From NCBI RefSeq assembly GCF_003390325.1, contig NZ_QUOK01000001.1, positions 124,001-188,000 of the forward strand: 64,000 nt of DNA, given 5' to 3'. The position numbers and the translations under genes were made by a program. This stretch comes from Rhodohalobacter sp. SW132. Its GTDB lineage: Bacteria; Bacteroidota; Rhodothermia; Balneolales; Balneolaceae. Each line of letters begins with the position of its first letter. Position 1 is the stretch's first letter. The notes beneath the pieces are model-generated. The model saw nothing but the letters and a program-made list of their open reading frames with translations, ran no database searches and was not told the origin of the DNA. This document shows positions 27,066 to 33,254 of the stretch, in pieces.

Positions 27066-28168
27066 TTAGTGGATGTTAAGCCTGTAAACCCGCACATCCG
27101 GATCGCGATCATCAAAATATCTTCTCACAAACAGACGATTTTCATTGTCTATATGACTATGAAATAATTTCACATCTTCACCATACTCTATATGGTCAGA
27201 CAGCGAAAACTGATCAATAAAAGTGCCATCCAGAGCGAAGACTTCAATATAATCTCCTATGGTCAATGCTTCTTTCTCATTTTGCCGATAAATGTGGTAG
27301 AAATAATTATCATTGACATCCAATAACATAGAGTAGTACAAAATTTGATATCTATAATTCCCGCCTCTGCCAGAAGAGCTCACCAATCCATTCATATCCT
27401 GCAATTCAGATATTGAATCTACATCGTATTCTACATAGTACGGAGCTTCAATAGTTGGATTTCCGACTACTTTAACATCACCTGAGACCGTATCAATTAA
27501 AAAAGGTTGCCTTTGTAAACTGTGTGGCCTGCAACAACCCTGTTGCCATCAACTGAAATGAGTTTATGACCTATTGTCCTGCCCATATTCTCTTCGATGG
27601 GGATCTTGTTATCAAATTGATATTTAAATATTGGAAAGTGAGATGAAATGTTTTCCTCTTCACCAAGTTCGTAAACTCTCAGTGCGTTTGCAGTCACATC
27701 AGTACTGCCGGGTACACCTGAACCTACATAGATTGTCGCAAATTTATCGTTTTTGAGAGGCGCCAGTGTCATAGTTGTCATATCGGGCATGTCTTTGTAG
27801 ATAAACTCCTCAACGCTGCCTGCTTCCATATTAAATTTAGCCACTTTGAACTGAAAACGATCCAATACTAGTAAATTATCATTTTCATCAACGGCTATTT
27901 CTGTAATTCTATTAAATTCTCCCGGACCTCTGCCCTGGGCGCCTACGCTCTGAAGATATTTGCCATCGGGTGTGTATTTATGAATCGCTCTGCCCCGGTG
28001 GTCTGCCACAATAATATTGCCGTGGCTGTCAGTACTTACACCAACCGGATTGTATAGATATCCGGGCTCACCGAATTCAAGATCTTCACCTACTGTAAAA
28101 AGGTATTCTACCTCAAGACTCATATCCTGAGCCTGCAGTGAAGCACAAAAGAAGAACAGGCTGGCCAC
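27066..28168 (-). pseudogene. 6-bladed beta-propeller protein, start-less and frameshifted
   Basis: Two frames on the minus strand join into one NHL/6-bladed propeller of about 367 residues. The first (28168-27497) has blades such as 'GYLYNPVGVSTDSHGNIIVA' and ends '...VYKGNLF' then stop. The sequence right after continues in another frame as 'FLIDTVSGDVKVVGNPTIEA' and runs into the second open frame (27404-27066). One base is missing at a run of six T (minus strand), near 27501-27506. Upstream of the GTG at 28168 the frame reads Y-K-K-I-I-I-T-F-V-A, a signal peptide whose initiator Met codon is TAT. The gene thus lacks both a proper start and an intact frame, unless the homopolymer is a sequencing error. 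It abuts the attC-like site. Confidence 0.8.
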
Positions 28169-28199
28169 AAAGGTTATTATAATTTTTTTATAGCGCTAA

Positions 28200-28331
28200 C
28201 GGAGAGCCATTTAACCGGCTTGGCCATTGATGCGAATAAAGTGAGGAAAACTAACAACTAAAACAAGAGCAGAGGCGTGAAAACATGCCTTACGTGGCCA
28301 AGTCCGCGTTGAAATGGTTGTTATAAAGCGG
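28200..28331 (-). other. attC-like integron recombination site
   Basis: Read on the minus strand. R'' is 'CCGCTTTATAAC' (28331-28320). It is followed by an arm 'CCATTTCAACGCGGACTTGG' that continues to 28295. A 68-base variable middle comes next, then an opposing arm (28226-28207) whose complement is 'CCATTTAACCGGCTTGGCCA', then 'CTCCGTTAGCG' with the R' cut motif G|TTAG at 28200. The two arms pair over CCATTT and CTTGGCCA with unequal bases between, the imperfect fold typical of attC. Total length is 132 bases, inside the known attC range. The site begins 11 bases past the stop of the PLD gene, as in cassettes. Confidence 0.75.
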
Positions 28332-28342
28332 TTTTAGGAATA

Positions 28343-29482
28343 TTATTTAGACAAATCGTCAATTTTAAAAAAATCAAATATGTATTCAAGTTTACCATTC
28401 TTAATTGGATATTCTTCTGGCATTAGCCAACCGGGTATTTCTCCAATTGATGATTTTCCTATGTAGTCAATTTTTAATCCATTTTTCTCTTTTTTGGTCA
28501 AAGCAATTGAATATTTATGCGACATGTCTAATTTCTCAAAAACAAGAAATTCAAGTAGTTTTCTCAATGACTCAGCATTTATAGACTTAATATTTTGCAT
28601 TCTTTTTCCTGAACCTGAACCACTCGAAATGCTATGGATACCCAAAAAGAATTCTCTAATTTCTTGCTCATCTACGGTTTGAAGGTTTTCGGCAATGTGT
28701 TTTGACTTCAAATATCTTTCCAATCTCCAATTGAAGTCTTTTTCTTCTATATATTTGGATATAAAAATTTCAAAATACTTCTGTAGTTCTTTCTTGTCGA
28801 AACGAGAATAGTTAGTCAAACTATAATCTTTAACAATTTTTGTTTTGAAGAAGTGACAAAAAGCATCAAATGTGTATGTAAATGGCAGTTCAGTATTGTT
28901 TAAATGCTCTAATATTCCCTTGACGAATAAGTGTTTTTCAAGAATTCTTGAATAGTTACTTGAATGTGTTTTCGAAATTCTTGCTCTTTTGTATCTCTCG
29001 TTAACCTCAATTTTCTTGTAGAATGTTCGATAGTAAGTAATAGTCTTTAGATCCAATTCGCTGAATGCTTCTTGTTTTAGTTTATGAAGGTAATTTGCTA
29101 TAAAATCAAGATTGTCAGTTGTTAAAACATTCAATTCCTTGTTGCTACCTATCCCGCTATTTGTAAAATTGGAAGACCCGATTATTGCACATAATCCCAG
29201 CCCATTTTTCTTGAAGTAATACACTTTTGAGTGAAGTGAGCTTGTATCATAAACTGAAATAGATTTTTGTGAAGTTTTTAAATCTAAAAGTCTTTGAAAT
29301 AATTCAGGTGTAGCTGGATAAGATAACCTACAAATTAAGGTGAATTTCACACTACGTTCCATGAGATCGAATAGAACATCGTTAGATGCAATAAATGGAG
29401 AGCAAATTAACACCTCGTCAGCTTTATTTATCCATTCTTTTAGCACGGTTCGTAGGCTTATCGTTTCATTATCTATTAGCAT
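28343..29482 (-). CDS. Phospholipase D-superfamily nuclease-like protein (cassette gene)
   Basis: 379 residues. An N-terminal PLD-like domain (about 1-150) has a first strand 'ADEVLICSPFIASNDVLFDL' and one HKD-type motif, 'LHSKVYYFKKNG' followed by 'IIGSSNFTNSG'. The HxK and GSxN parts are present, but the Asp of HxKx4D reads Lys. One motif per chain suggests a dimer, as in Nuc and NgoFVII/BfiI-type restriction nucleases. The C-terminal 230 residues are helical and AT-rich with no domain I know. Phosphodiester cleavage, probably of nucleic acid, is inferred. It occupies the attC-bounded cassette alone, and its base composition is clearly more AT-rich than neighbours outside the island. Confidence 0.8.
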   Translation of the reverse strand: MLIDNETISLRTVLKEWINKADEVLICSPFIASNDVLFDLMERSVKFTLICRLSYPATPELFQRLLDLKTSQKSISVYDTSSLHSKVYYFKKNGLGLCAIIGSSNFTNSGIGSNKELNVLTTDNLDFIANYLHKLKQEAFSELDLKTITYYRTFYKKIEVNERYKRARISKTHSSNYSRILEKHLFVKGILEHLNNTELPFTYTFDAFCHFFKTKIVKDYSLTNYSRFDKKELQKYFEIFISKYIEEKDFNWRLERYLKSKHIAENLQTVDEQEIREFFLGIHSISSGSGSGKRMQNIKSINAESLRKLLEFLVFEKLDMSHKYSIALTKKEKNGLKIDYIGKSSIGEIPGWLMPEEYPIKNGKLEYIFDFFKIDDLSK

Positions 29483-29711
29483 ATCTGTAAGATTTTAAGT
29501 CTTGAATGAACACAAGTTGTTTTCCGCTTTATAACATATAATTCATTTCAGGGCTTTAGACCCTGATTTCTATCGGATAGTAAACCAATTATCTTGATCG
29601 TGCAAAAAGGTTACAAAAAATGCCCGATGAATGTTTATCGGCAGATTCTGTATGTCTGAATAAAAGTATCCACCCGGCCAACAGTATCTTTCGGGTGATG
29701 ATGTCACATAG

Positions 29712-30144
29712 TTGTGGAAATTGGAATTTCAAAAGCAGGGTGCTCCACACTATCACATCATTGTAGGACTGCCAAAACTTTACAAACATGAATATTTTAA
29801 ACATTGGTTAAGTAATTGCTGGTTTGAAGTCACTCAAGGCTTTTGGGATGAAAAAACAAGAGAATTACTTATCAGCCGATACGGAAGTACAGAAAATCAA
29901 GAATACTCGATCTACTGCTCATTATCCCTTTAAGTACCTGAATAAGGAGTTATCTGATGAATCTAAGAATCAAGGTCGCTACTGGGGATGCTCACGTAAC
30001 TGGGGTGATCTCATGCACGAAGCGGAACTTACAGGGAGACAGCTCGTCCAATTCAGACGATTAGTTAAGAAACTCACCAAAAAGAATAACGCGCGAATGG
30101 CTAAGATGATAACCCTTCCTTTAAATCTTACCATTTTTGGCTAA
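29712..30144 (+). pseudogene. Broken HUH-type rolling-circle replication initiator
   Basis: Frame one (from a TTG at 29712) gives 'KLEFQKQGAPHYHIIVGLP', the metal-binding HUH block seen in phage and plasmid Rep proteins. A second frame, open until 30144, gives 'YPFKYLNKELSDESKNQGRY', then 'WG'. This is the catalytic-Tyr helix plus the 'GRxWG' motif that follows in the same families. A one-base shift near 29910-29930 separates them. The N-terminus is missing. It is likely a relic of an inovirus/microvirus or small plasmid integration. Confidence 0.7.
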
Positions 30145-30333
30145 TGGGGTAGTTTTATAGATGCTCTTAATTGGGTTGAACAAGCGTATTAGGCTACAAT
30201 ACTTAAGCCGAACTCACCTTAGTAAAATTGTTCTAGTATTCAATTGCACTCTTTTAATGCACTAAAGAACTAACTACTTGAATATTAACTATATCGGTGT
30301 AGCTTAAATGTGTTATTGAAATAAGGAAATAAT

Positions 30334-30365
30334 TATGGGACTATGGGCTAGTTTATAGTCCCATA
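30334..30365 (+). promoter_or_regulatory. Perfect 11-bp stem-loop just upstream of the PHP-ATPase gene
   Basis: TATGGGACTAT (30334-30344) pairs with ATAGTCCCATA (30355-30365) around a 10-base loop. It ends 31 bases before the ATG at 30397. It lacks a T-run on the plus strand. It may be an operator or a leader RNA fold controlling the gene; no function is shown. Confidence 0.5.
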
Positions 30366-30396
30366 CTTCGCTGACAAAAAAAATAACTACTAAAAA

Positions 30397-33081
30397 ATGG
30401 CAAATATTCAACAAGAATTAGACGAAATTGGATACGGAGCAAAATTTAGAAGAGGCGATTTACATATACATTCTTATGGTGAAAGATATGGTTCCTATGA
30501 TGTAATAGATACTACAATGACTCCTAAAGCTATTGTAGATAAAGCCTTAGAAGAAGGACTTGAAGTAATTAGCATAACTGATCATAATGATATACGAAAT
30601 GCTGAAATTGCAATAGATTATGCAAACGATAAGAATATTTTAGTCATACCTGGAGTTGAGTTTTCAACGACACAGGGTCACTTACTTGTATATTTTCCAA
30701 CATTCAAAAATCTGGATGATTTCTTTGGAAAGATTGATGTGAGTGAAGACAGAAAAACCTGTTTTAAAGGATTTGTCGAGTGCTTAGAATTGGCTGGGAT
30801 TTACGATGGGTTTGGAGTGGCGGCACATATTGATGGACCAAAAGGTTTCGAAACTGAAATTAAAAACTACAACCCTGATAAAGAAAACATAATTAAACAT
30901 CCTAATTTACTTGGTTTAGAGATTGTCAAAAAAGATTCAAGTAAATTTTACACTATAAATGATACAGAAATTGAAAGGATTAACTTCTTAAAGAAAAGGA
31001 ACAAAGAACTTTCAAAAGAAAAAGGATATCCTATTGCGGTAGTCATGAACTCAGATTCTCATAGTCTTTCAAGACTTGGAAGAAATGCAGCAGATGATAA
31101 GAAAATTACAAGATTTAAAATGGATACTTTAACATTTGAATCTTTAAAACATGCCTTCCTTGATTCATTCTCAAGAATACGTATTGAAGAATTTGTTCCA
31201 GAAAATGTACCGCATTTTTACGGTGTTAGAGTTAAAGGAGGGTTTCTACATAATCAACTTATAAAATTTAGCCCTAACCTCACATGCATTATAGGTGGAA
31301 GAGGTGCAGGTAAGTCAACACTTTTAGAGTCTATAAGAGAAGCTTCTGGCAACCAATCTCAGAGTAGTAAAATTGTCGATTCCTCAGTTTGGCCAGAAGA
31401 AATTGAATTAGTATTCAGAGATGAAGTTGGAGAATATCATGTTTTTCAAAGAGATATTGATGAGGAAACTTATAACAAGACAGATCAAGAAGATGGAATC
31501 AAATGTGTACCAATAGAAAGTTATACACAAGGTAGAACTGCTGATTTGATACAGCATGCTAATGATAAACCAGACGTTCTTCTAGAATTTTTTGATGAGT
31601 TTATAGTGTTTGAAGAGTTAAAAGAAGAGGAAGAAAAAGTTAGGGTAGATCTGATAGATAAGATAGACTTAATAGATCATCTTAGAAATGAAGTAAATAA
31701 AATTGAGGAACTTAAGGGGCAAAAAAAAGAAGTCGAAAGAAAACTTGAAGTTCAAGCAAAAAACAAACTAGATGAATTGATAAAACTTGAACAGAACTTA
31801 CAAAAGGGTCGAGAGTTTAGAACTGATTTGATAGAGGATCTAAACAATGCGATTACGACTGTGAGAAAGGTGTTATCCGATAAAACATACTTTAATCAAA
31901 TTAAAGAACAGGACTTTGATTCAATTGAAGTTGGGAAATCAGAATTAGATGAAATTCTTAATGATGTCCAAAAAATAGAAAAGATTATAGAAAAGGCTGG
32001 GTTGAAAATTGATTCCGAGTCTAAAGAGATGATCAAATCCATTAAAGGTAATTTGAAATCTTGGAGACTCGAAGAATCCAAAATTCTATCAAGAATTGAA
32101 GAAAAAAAGAAAGAGTTAGAGGAAAAGGGCATTAGGTTTGATTTGGCTTTTATAAAGTCTCTAACAAAGCAAAATGTCAAAATTGATAAAAAGCTAACTC
32201 AATTAAGAGTTAAGAAAAAGCAATATTTGAAGGAGTTGAAAAATGAAAGAGAACTTATTAAAGAGAGAAAACAATTAAAAAACAGAATTTATCTATACAG
32301 GAAAGTGTGGGCGGATAAAATAAATCAGCTACTAGCAGAAACGGTAACTGATTATAGTATTTCGATTAAATTTAATGAAGGAAAATTCTCAGAAGATTTA
32401 ATTCAATATTTGATGACTGAAATAAATTGGTATCACACTAAGACACCAAAAATGAGGGCTATAATTGAGACTTATCCTCCATATGAATTGCTTAAAATTT
32501 TAAGAAGTAAAGACAGAAAAGAATTTGAAAAAATGGAAAGTCCAGAGGGAGGTAGATTATTCTCCAAGACTGAAGTAGATAGTATAGTTTCTTTGAGCAA
32601 GCCTCATGTTCTGAACAGAATTAAAACAATTAAATTTGATGACTTTCCAAGATTATTAGTGACAAAAGAAGAGAGAGATGAAAGTGGTAAAAAAGTACTG
32701 AGAACTAAAAACTTTACTAACTTATCACTTGGTCAGCAGCAGTCGATTTTACTATCCATATTACTTTACTCAGATAATAAATACCCACTTCTCATAGATC
32801 AACCAGAAGATAATTTGGACAGTGAGTTCATTTATAAGACTATCGTTAAGAATTTAAGGCGGGTTAAAGAAATAAGACAAGTGATAATAGTCACGCATAA
32901 TGCAAATATTGCAGTTTTAGGTGATGCAGAATTAATTATACCATTTAAAAGTACAAGCCAGAGAGCTCATCTAATTGATTCTGGGTCAATTGATAATACA
33001 GAAACAAAAAATATCACTTGTAATATTTTAGAGGGAAGTAAACAAGCTTTTAAAAAGAGAAAGGAGATATATGGAATCTGA
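30397..33081 (+). CDS. PHP phosphoesterase fused to SMC/ABC-type ATPase (Ppl/TrlF-like, predicted anti-phage)
   Basis: 894 residues, strongly AT-rich. The N-terminal PHP domain (about 15-260) has H23-x-H25 ('GDLHIHSYG'), 'ISITDHNDI', 'VAAHIDGPKGF' and 'VMNSDSHSLSR', the metal ligands of PHP phosphoesterases. An SMC-type ATPase head begins at about 285 with Walker A 'IIGGRGAGKSTL'. A long coiled coil covers about 400-660. The second half-head carries the signature 'LSLGQQQS' and Walker B 'PLLIDQPEDNLDS'. PHP-SMC proteins of this layout are named TrlF-family and Ppl, the latter a reported single-gene antiviral system. It probably cleaves nucleic acid under ATP control. Its neighbours are a broken Rep gene and tRNA-Val. 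Confidence 0.88.
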   Translation: MANIQQELDEIGYGAKFRRGDLHIHSYGERYGSYDVIDTTMTPKAIVDKALEEGLEVISITDHNDIRNAEIAIDYANDKNILVIPGVEFSTTQGHLLVYFPTFKNLDDFFGKIDVSEDRKTCFKGFVECLELAGIYDGFGVAAHIDGPKGFETEIKNYNPDKENIIKHPNLLGLEIVKKDSSKFYTINDTEIERINFLKKRNKELSKEKGYPIAVVMNSDSHSLSRLGRNAADDKKITRFKMDTLTFESLKHAFLDSFSRIRIEEFVPENVPHFYGVRVKGGFLHNQLIKFSPNLTCIIGGRGAGKSTLLESIREASGNQSQSSKIVDSSVWPEEIELVFRDEVGEYHVFQRDIDEETYNKTDQEDGIKCVPIESYTQGRTADLIQHANDKPDVLLEFFDEFIVFEELKEEEEKVRVDLIDKIDLIDHLRNEVNKIEELKGQKKEVERKLEVQAKNKLDELIKLEQNLQKGREFRTDLIEDLNNAITTVRKVLSDKTYFNQIKEQDFDSIEVGKSELDEILNDVQKIEKIIEKAGLKIDSESKEMIKSIKGNLKSWRLEESKILSRIEEKKKELEEKGIRFDLAFIKSLTKQNVKIDKKLTQLRVKKKQYLKELKNERELIKERKQLKNRIYLYRKVWADKINQLLAETVTDYSISIKFNEGKFSEDLIQYLMTEINWYHTKTPKMRAIIETYPPYELLKILRSKDRKEFEKMESPEGGRLFSKTEVDSIVSLSKPHVLNRIKTIKFDDFPRLLVTKEERDESGKKVLRTKNFTNLSLGQQQSILLSILLYSDNKYPLLIDQPEDNLDSEFIYKTIVKNLRRVKEIRQVIIVTHNANIAVLGDAELIIPFKSTSQRAHLIDSGSIDNTETKNITCNILEGSKQAFKKRKEIYGI

Positions 33082-33177: not shown

Positions 33178-33179
33178 AG

Positions 33180-33254
33180 TGGGCGCTGAGGGATTCGAAC
33201 CCCCGACCCCCTCGGTGTAAACGAGATGCTCTAAACCAACTGAGCTAAGCGCCC
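33180..33254 (-). tRNA. tRNA-Val (anticodon UAC)
   Basis: The minus strand folds as a full cloverleaf. The acceptor is GGGCGCT/AGCGCCC with discriminator A. The D arm is 'GCTCAGTTGGTTTAGAGC'. The anticodon stem CTCG/CGAG has loop TTTACAC (anticodon TAC), and the T arm is 'CGGGGGTTCGAATCCCTC'. The 3' CCA is not encoded. The AT-rich accessory block ends next to it, which fits a tRNA-side insertion hotspot. Confidence 0.97.

Follow-up and report, generated by a model that had tools for sequence, protein, structure and literature searches.

A PLD-Domain Gene Cassette beside a Copy of attI without an Adjacent Integrase Gene in Rhodohalobacter sp. SW132

The cassette and its gene

The window (the whole stretch of 64 kb analyzed here) contains an integron gene cassette of 1335 bp on the minus strand (28200–29534). 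It runs as TT...G between two crossover points, and both of its boundaries, 28200 and 29534, satisfy the G^TT rule (the caret marks the crossover). The cassette has a GC content of 31%, compared with 45% for the window. On the minus strand its start (29535–29524) reads GTTATAAAGCGG, the exact reverse complement (12 of 12 positions) of the R'' box CCGCTTTATAAC at 28331–28320. This 12-mer has two exact copies in the window, at 28320–28331 (+) and 29524–29535 (−); the complementarity of start and R'' occurred 0 times in 100 dinucleotide shuffles (expectation 0.00). The stop codon of the gene ends at 28343 and is followed by 11 bases and then by the site 28200–28331, which ends in CCG^TTAG. In the arrays of relatives, adjacent start and R'' boxes agree at 6.55 of 9 positions, against 3.63 of 9 for other pairs; by this clade-wide measure the cassette in the window agrees at 9 of 9. 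An earlier, sequence-only reading had described the stop codon, the 11 bases, the site, and the complementary 12-mers, all of which are present and correct to the base. The segment is a real and complete integron gene cassette.

The cassette encodes a protein of 379 amino acids (28343–29482, −) with an N-terminal PLD domain (PF09565, 47.6 bits; PF13091, 41 bits) and a C-terminal part without a family match. Residues H84-x-K86, N105, and E116 of the domain make up one HKD-like half in the style of BfiI and NgoFVII, the N and E presumably standing at BfiI-like places, given the known features of the family. The protein thus shares with those nucleases, and with DrmC, an N-terminal PLD domain with one HxK half; it differs from them in its C-terminal two thirds, which match nothing searched. 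Full-length homologs were absent from 245 genomes of the class and from plasmids, phages, and viral or genome contigs, no solved structure was matched, and an AlphaFold model from the single sequence reached a pLDDT of only 39. The sequence-only reading had proposed a PLD-type nuclease; the profiles bear out the domain, and the gene is an orphan in these searches. Comparison with PADLOC gave 42.7 bits to DrmC, confined to the PLD domain; the match to DpdK reached 28 bits (cut-off 100). Both matches lie below family level and do not place the protein in DrmC of DISARM or among the anti-phage PLD proteins. The partner genes of DISARM and restriction systems are absent from the cassette, which sets it apart from those systems. 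A nuclease that acts as a dimer is plausible from the sequence; given the weakness of the DrmC and DpdK matches, an anti-phage role would be a guess.

The attC site

The attC site extends from 28196 to 28331, and the plus strand is its recombinogenic bottom strand, as judged by the covariance model and the arm finder described below. R' is CTAAC (28196–28200, +) and R'' is GTTATAAAGCGG (28320–28331, +). Between them, also on the plus strand, lie two arms (28207–28226 and 28295–28317) with 20 paired bp and a loop. In attC the recombinogenic strand is defined by extrahelical bases, which stand on the 3' arm of the bottom strand. Here there are three, T28303, C28307, and G28311, all on that arm; they were read from the sequence and agree with both the fold and the arm finder. 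Folding is more favorable for the bottom strand than for the top strand (−20.6 versus −17.0 kcal/mol; z = −2.66 versus −1.95).

A covariance model (R1) was built from 47 aligned attC sites of relatives, and the site in the window was left out of its training. The training sites came from a home-made finder of R and L boxes (the arm finder), run on arrays adjoining the relatives' intI genes; in these arrays most sites lie on the strand that the orientation of intI predicts, and weaker matches on the opposite strand are mostly co-located with them. R1 matched 28194–28326 with 52.7 bits (E = 1.9e-9 across the whole genome), the sole match in the window. The arm finder scored the site at 52.1, the highest value among the regions scanned in this genome; used alone, its background scores reach about 41. 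Arrays linked to intI in relatives show the extrahelical pattern G, C, T again on the 3' arm of the bottom strand, and close variants of the arms, CGGTTTAACCGGCTTGGCC...GGCCAAGTCCGCGTTGAAACCG, are found in such arrays of four of them (L070, L071, L087, and L088). Counting against the site, neither its R'' (TTATAAC) nor its R' (GTTAGCG) fits the consensus RYYYAAC/GTTRRRY. An Rfam search returned no attC match there. Inverted repeats are common and the background of the arm finder is appreciable, so that an unrelated repeat (a terminator, or a MITE or REP hairpin) 3' of a horizontally acquired gene might pass for an attC. The two scores, with no second R1 match in 64 kb, and the complementarity of start and R'' refute such a look-alike for practical purposes, and we give it next to no credence. 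The claim of a genuine cassette with its own attC is upheld by model and arm finder alike.

Across the genome R1 found nine further sites with E below 0.01. Several attC sites of this genome (C7:6220, C1:975547, and C4:4640) have ATC in place of AAC in the R'' box, which reflects either decay or a tolerated variant.

A copy of attI on the left flank and its surroundings

A search of the genome for IntI, as the sequence-only reading had advised, found a genuine one on contig C15 (TIGR02249, 433 bits against a cut-off of 265). It is the only IntI above the cut-off in the genome. Its sequence holds the integron-specific insert (patch) before the second catalytic arginine, and Balneolaceae MAGs are among its closest named relatives. 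The array runs off the end of the contig; the first cassette at this attI (G000:C15:1-725) resembles the first cassette of an intI locus in the same genus (G003/L104). By tblastn, the window itself contains neither IntI nor a remnant of it.

The left flank of the cassette (29532–29666, +) is a copy of attI and the intI leader. Its core, TAAC^ATATAATTC, lies at 29532–29544 (TATAAC from 29530), with the crossover after C29535. Among relatives, arrays at intI loci start about 200–220 bp upstream of intI, with the core TAAC^ATATAATT; the form TAAC^ATRTATT and the spacing are common to the flank and to the intI locus of the host. Positions 29574–29666 are 83% identical to the leader of the host intI (C15:763-854), and the copy is 74% identical to C1:941083-941175; in all three places the homologous block sits 38 bp from the core. 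Over 134 bp the flank and the C15 leader are 76% identical. The homology (E = 1e-19 and 4e-22) begins exactly at the TAAC of the crossover, and a five-way alignment that includes the leaders L103 and L104, from the intI loci of two close relatives, is collinear. Shuffled leaders gave 0 matches. An attI thus stands before the first cassette, as in a complete integron, and no intI adjoins it: what the copy retains is the core with some 130 bp of the leader. The cassette had been read as a free-standing insertion outside any array. That description fails, since the flank is a collinear copy of attI and leader with the cassette directly in first position, at an attI that lost or never had its intI. 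The locus is therefore an integron platform without intI, holding one cassette.

The intI-side end of the copy (29666) coincides with a decayed HUH element of the Rep ORF2/G2P-like kind with terminal hairpins (29667–30390, +), which occupies the position expected for intI. It spans two frames, and its match to PF23343 (25.8 bits) is below the cut-off of 27.8. A REP-like hairpin, CCACCCG...CGGGTGG (29667–29697), recurs at an intergenic site at G000:C4:324880. On the right, the cassette abuts a DUF5128/6-bladed propeller pseudogene (27066–28199, −; ORFs 27497–28168 and 27066–27404). Its 5' end is cut at the cassette boundary and it is frameshifted; full-length relatives have about 380–400 amino acids. 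No close ortholog of the propeller gene, and no empty or orthologous cassette site, was found in 59 relatives. Farther to the left a gene for a TrlF-family PHP-AAA ATPase (30397–33081, +; NF045780, 510 bits, cut-off 350; GC 31%), the neighbor of the PLD gene, lies beside a tRNA-Val gene (33179–33254, −). This region is probably a genomic island with a candidate defense gene.

Origin of the locus and its counterparts in the Balneolaceae

The arrangement is very probably an integron of one cassette that lacks an integrase of its own: the PLD cassette occupies a copy of attI that has no intI. We infer that the cassette was excised elsewhere as a circle and that IntI, today encoded at least on C15, would have inserted it by recombination between attC and attI. 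On the minus strand the insertion point would fall between G29535 and T28199, and the attI before insertion is predicted to have read ...GAATTATATG^TTAGCGCTATAAAA, with 29535 joined to 28199. In principle IntI, working in trans on the bottom strand of attC in its folded form, should be able to excise the cassette again, and a promoter within the attI/leader segment may drive the PLD gene.

A different target is conceivable: IntI could have put the cassette into a chance secondary site (attG), with the likeness of the flank to attI due to coincidence or extending no further than the GTT core. Cassettes are known to insert at attG (Loot et al. 2024, as cited in PMC11023631). Some other sites in this genome, C3:186k and C2:4.2k among them, have just some 10 bp in common with the core of attI (GAATTTTATG and GAAATATATG), so attG may well be used elsewhere in the genome. 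For the window, however, we consider it quite improbable. An attG site would have no attI sequence beyond the core, whereas the flank here stays homologous to the intI leader, with fixed spacing, for 134 bp past the crossover, and shuffled leaders match nothing. Within the preferred reading, a cassette at an attI without intI, it is about an even question whether a complete integron decayed, intI having been deleted or displaced by the HUH element so that attI and one cassette were left; this bears only on how intI went missing. The HUH remnant stands exactly where intI should start, the locus is near tRNA-Val (a usual target of islands), and in one relative (G022; L224:3862-4065) a copy of attI runs straight into the final 23 codons of intI, which is a clear scar of an internal deletion in that gene. 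Against such a decay, no fragment of intI remains at the window locus, and none was found beside the other attI copies examined, that of G022 excepted.

Elsewhere in the genome of this halophilic bacterium there are at least three copies of attI without intI, one of them decayed. The copy at C1:941083-941175 is followed by a run of cassettes that ends in an attC and a higBA-like pair; those at C7:152k and C3:502.5k are diverged, and the latter is the decayed one. A second cassette that obeys the start/R'' rule at 12 of 12 positions lies at C3:186k (G000:C3:186289-186418, locus L036) and encodes a response regulator and a histidine kinase. A further cassette follows it, with a TIR-like ORF of 306 amino acids and a truncated or weak attC (L036:5260-5349).

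A TIGR02249 IntI is present in 92 of 196 genomes of relatives from the Balneolaceae and elsewhere in the class. R1 sites occur in 17 of the 18 genomes checked, often in multiple clusters distant from intI. When the intI leaders of 102 reference loci were used as queries (E below 1e-4), copies of attI were found at the head of 19 of 47 dispersed loci. All 19 are on the expected side and strand relative to the attC coordinates and nearly all start at TAAC; the two weakest, at L205 and L230, are under 40 bp. A first control was not clean, with five matches in 364 kb: two lie inside arrays of relatives (L072 and L088), one is the decayed host copy (C3:502k), and two look spurious or belong to a first cassette.

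In G064, G096, G080, and G069 there are six copies whose ends lie no more than 2 bp from a TAAC box in the leader, and some recent copies stop exactly at such a box. The chance of an end this close is 0.04–0.13 per copy; some share a leader, so the six are not fully independent. One locus (L197:2943-3253, in G064:C2) has two different attI in tandem and no intI, the second being of the type of another species (G033). Because of the 19 loci headed by attI copies, these ends, and the tandem, we suggest tentatively that attI itself is mobile in the Balneolaceae. IntI may move attI together with 110–190 bp of leader, as a module bounded by TAAC on both sides, probably along with the first cassettes and through recombination of attC with the TAAC box of the leader. 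Such movement would seed satellite platforms without intI around the chromosome and from one species to another, and a single IntI would serve them all in trans; the window locus would be one of these platforms. We regard this as doubtful: no TAAC box marks the end of the copy in the window, and a simple deletion accounts for the missing intI beside at least one copy (that of G022).

The locus shares much with the sedentary chromosomal integrons of Vibrio and Xanthomonas, namely the R''/L''/L'/R' boxes and extrahelical bases of attC, a cassette start complementary to R'', an attI by the first cassette, and a TIGR02249 IntI in the genome. It differs from these and from complete integrons in having attI and cassette without intI, which is on another contig. 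Like CALINs (PMC9024848) it has attC without a neighboring intI; it also has a recognizable copy of attI, which the definition of CALIN does not require. The default of IntegronFinder 2 for a CALIN is at least two attC without intI (PMC9024848), and the R1 search of the window gave one, which leaves the locus outside that class. With one attC and no intI, it would by default go unreported by standard software. Insertions at attG, as presented in the account of Loot et al. 2024 in PMC11023631, likewise place a cassette away from the main array, but at a minimal secondary target, whereas the target here is a 134-bp copy of attI and leader. Delta-attI-type gene cassettes of mobile resistance integrons, in which a truncated attI serves as the recombination site of the cassette (PMC12901181), also have attI apart from intI and involved in cassette movement; here, in contrast, attI and leader head chromosomal satellite clusters.

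The remark in the sequence-only reading that integrons are little described in this phylum is fair as to the literature searched. The sole new complete integron that IntegronFinder 2.0 (PMC9024848) lists for Bacteroidetes is that of Salinibacter ruber M1, and our literature search found no report for Balneolota. The genes themselves are not rare, given how common IntI is among the genomes surveyed. Integrons are thus common in the Balneolaceae and seem to be under-described there, and many of the family's lone cassettes are at duplicated docking sites without intI and are not random insertions. If attI modules do move, one integrase could run several expression platforms at once; the reading of CALINs and lone attC sites would change, and such modules would be a source of new integron loci.
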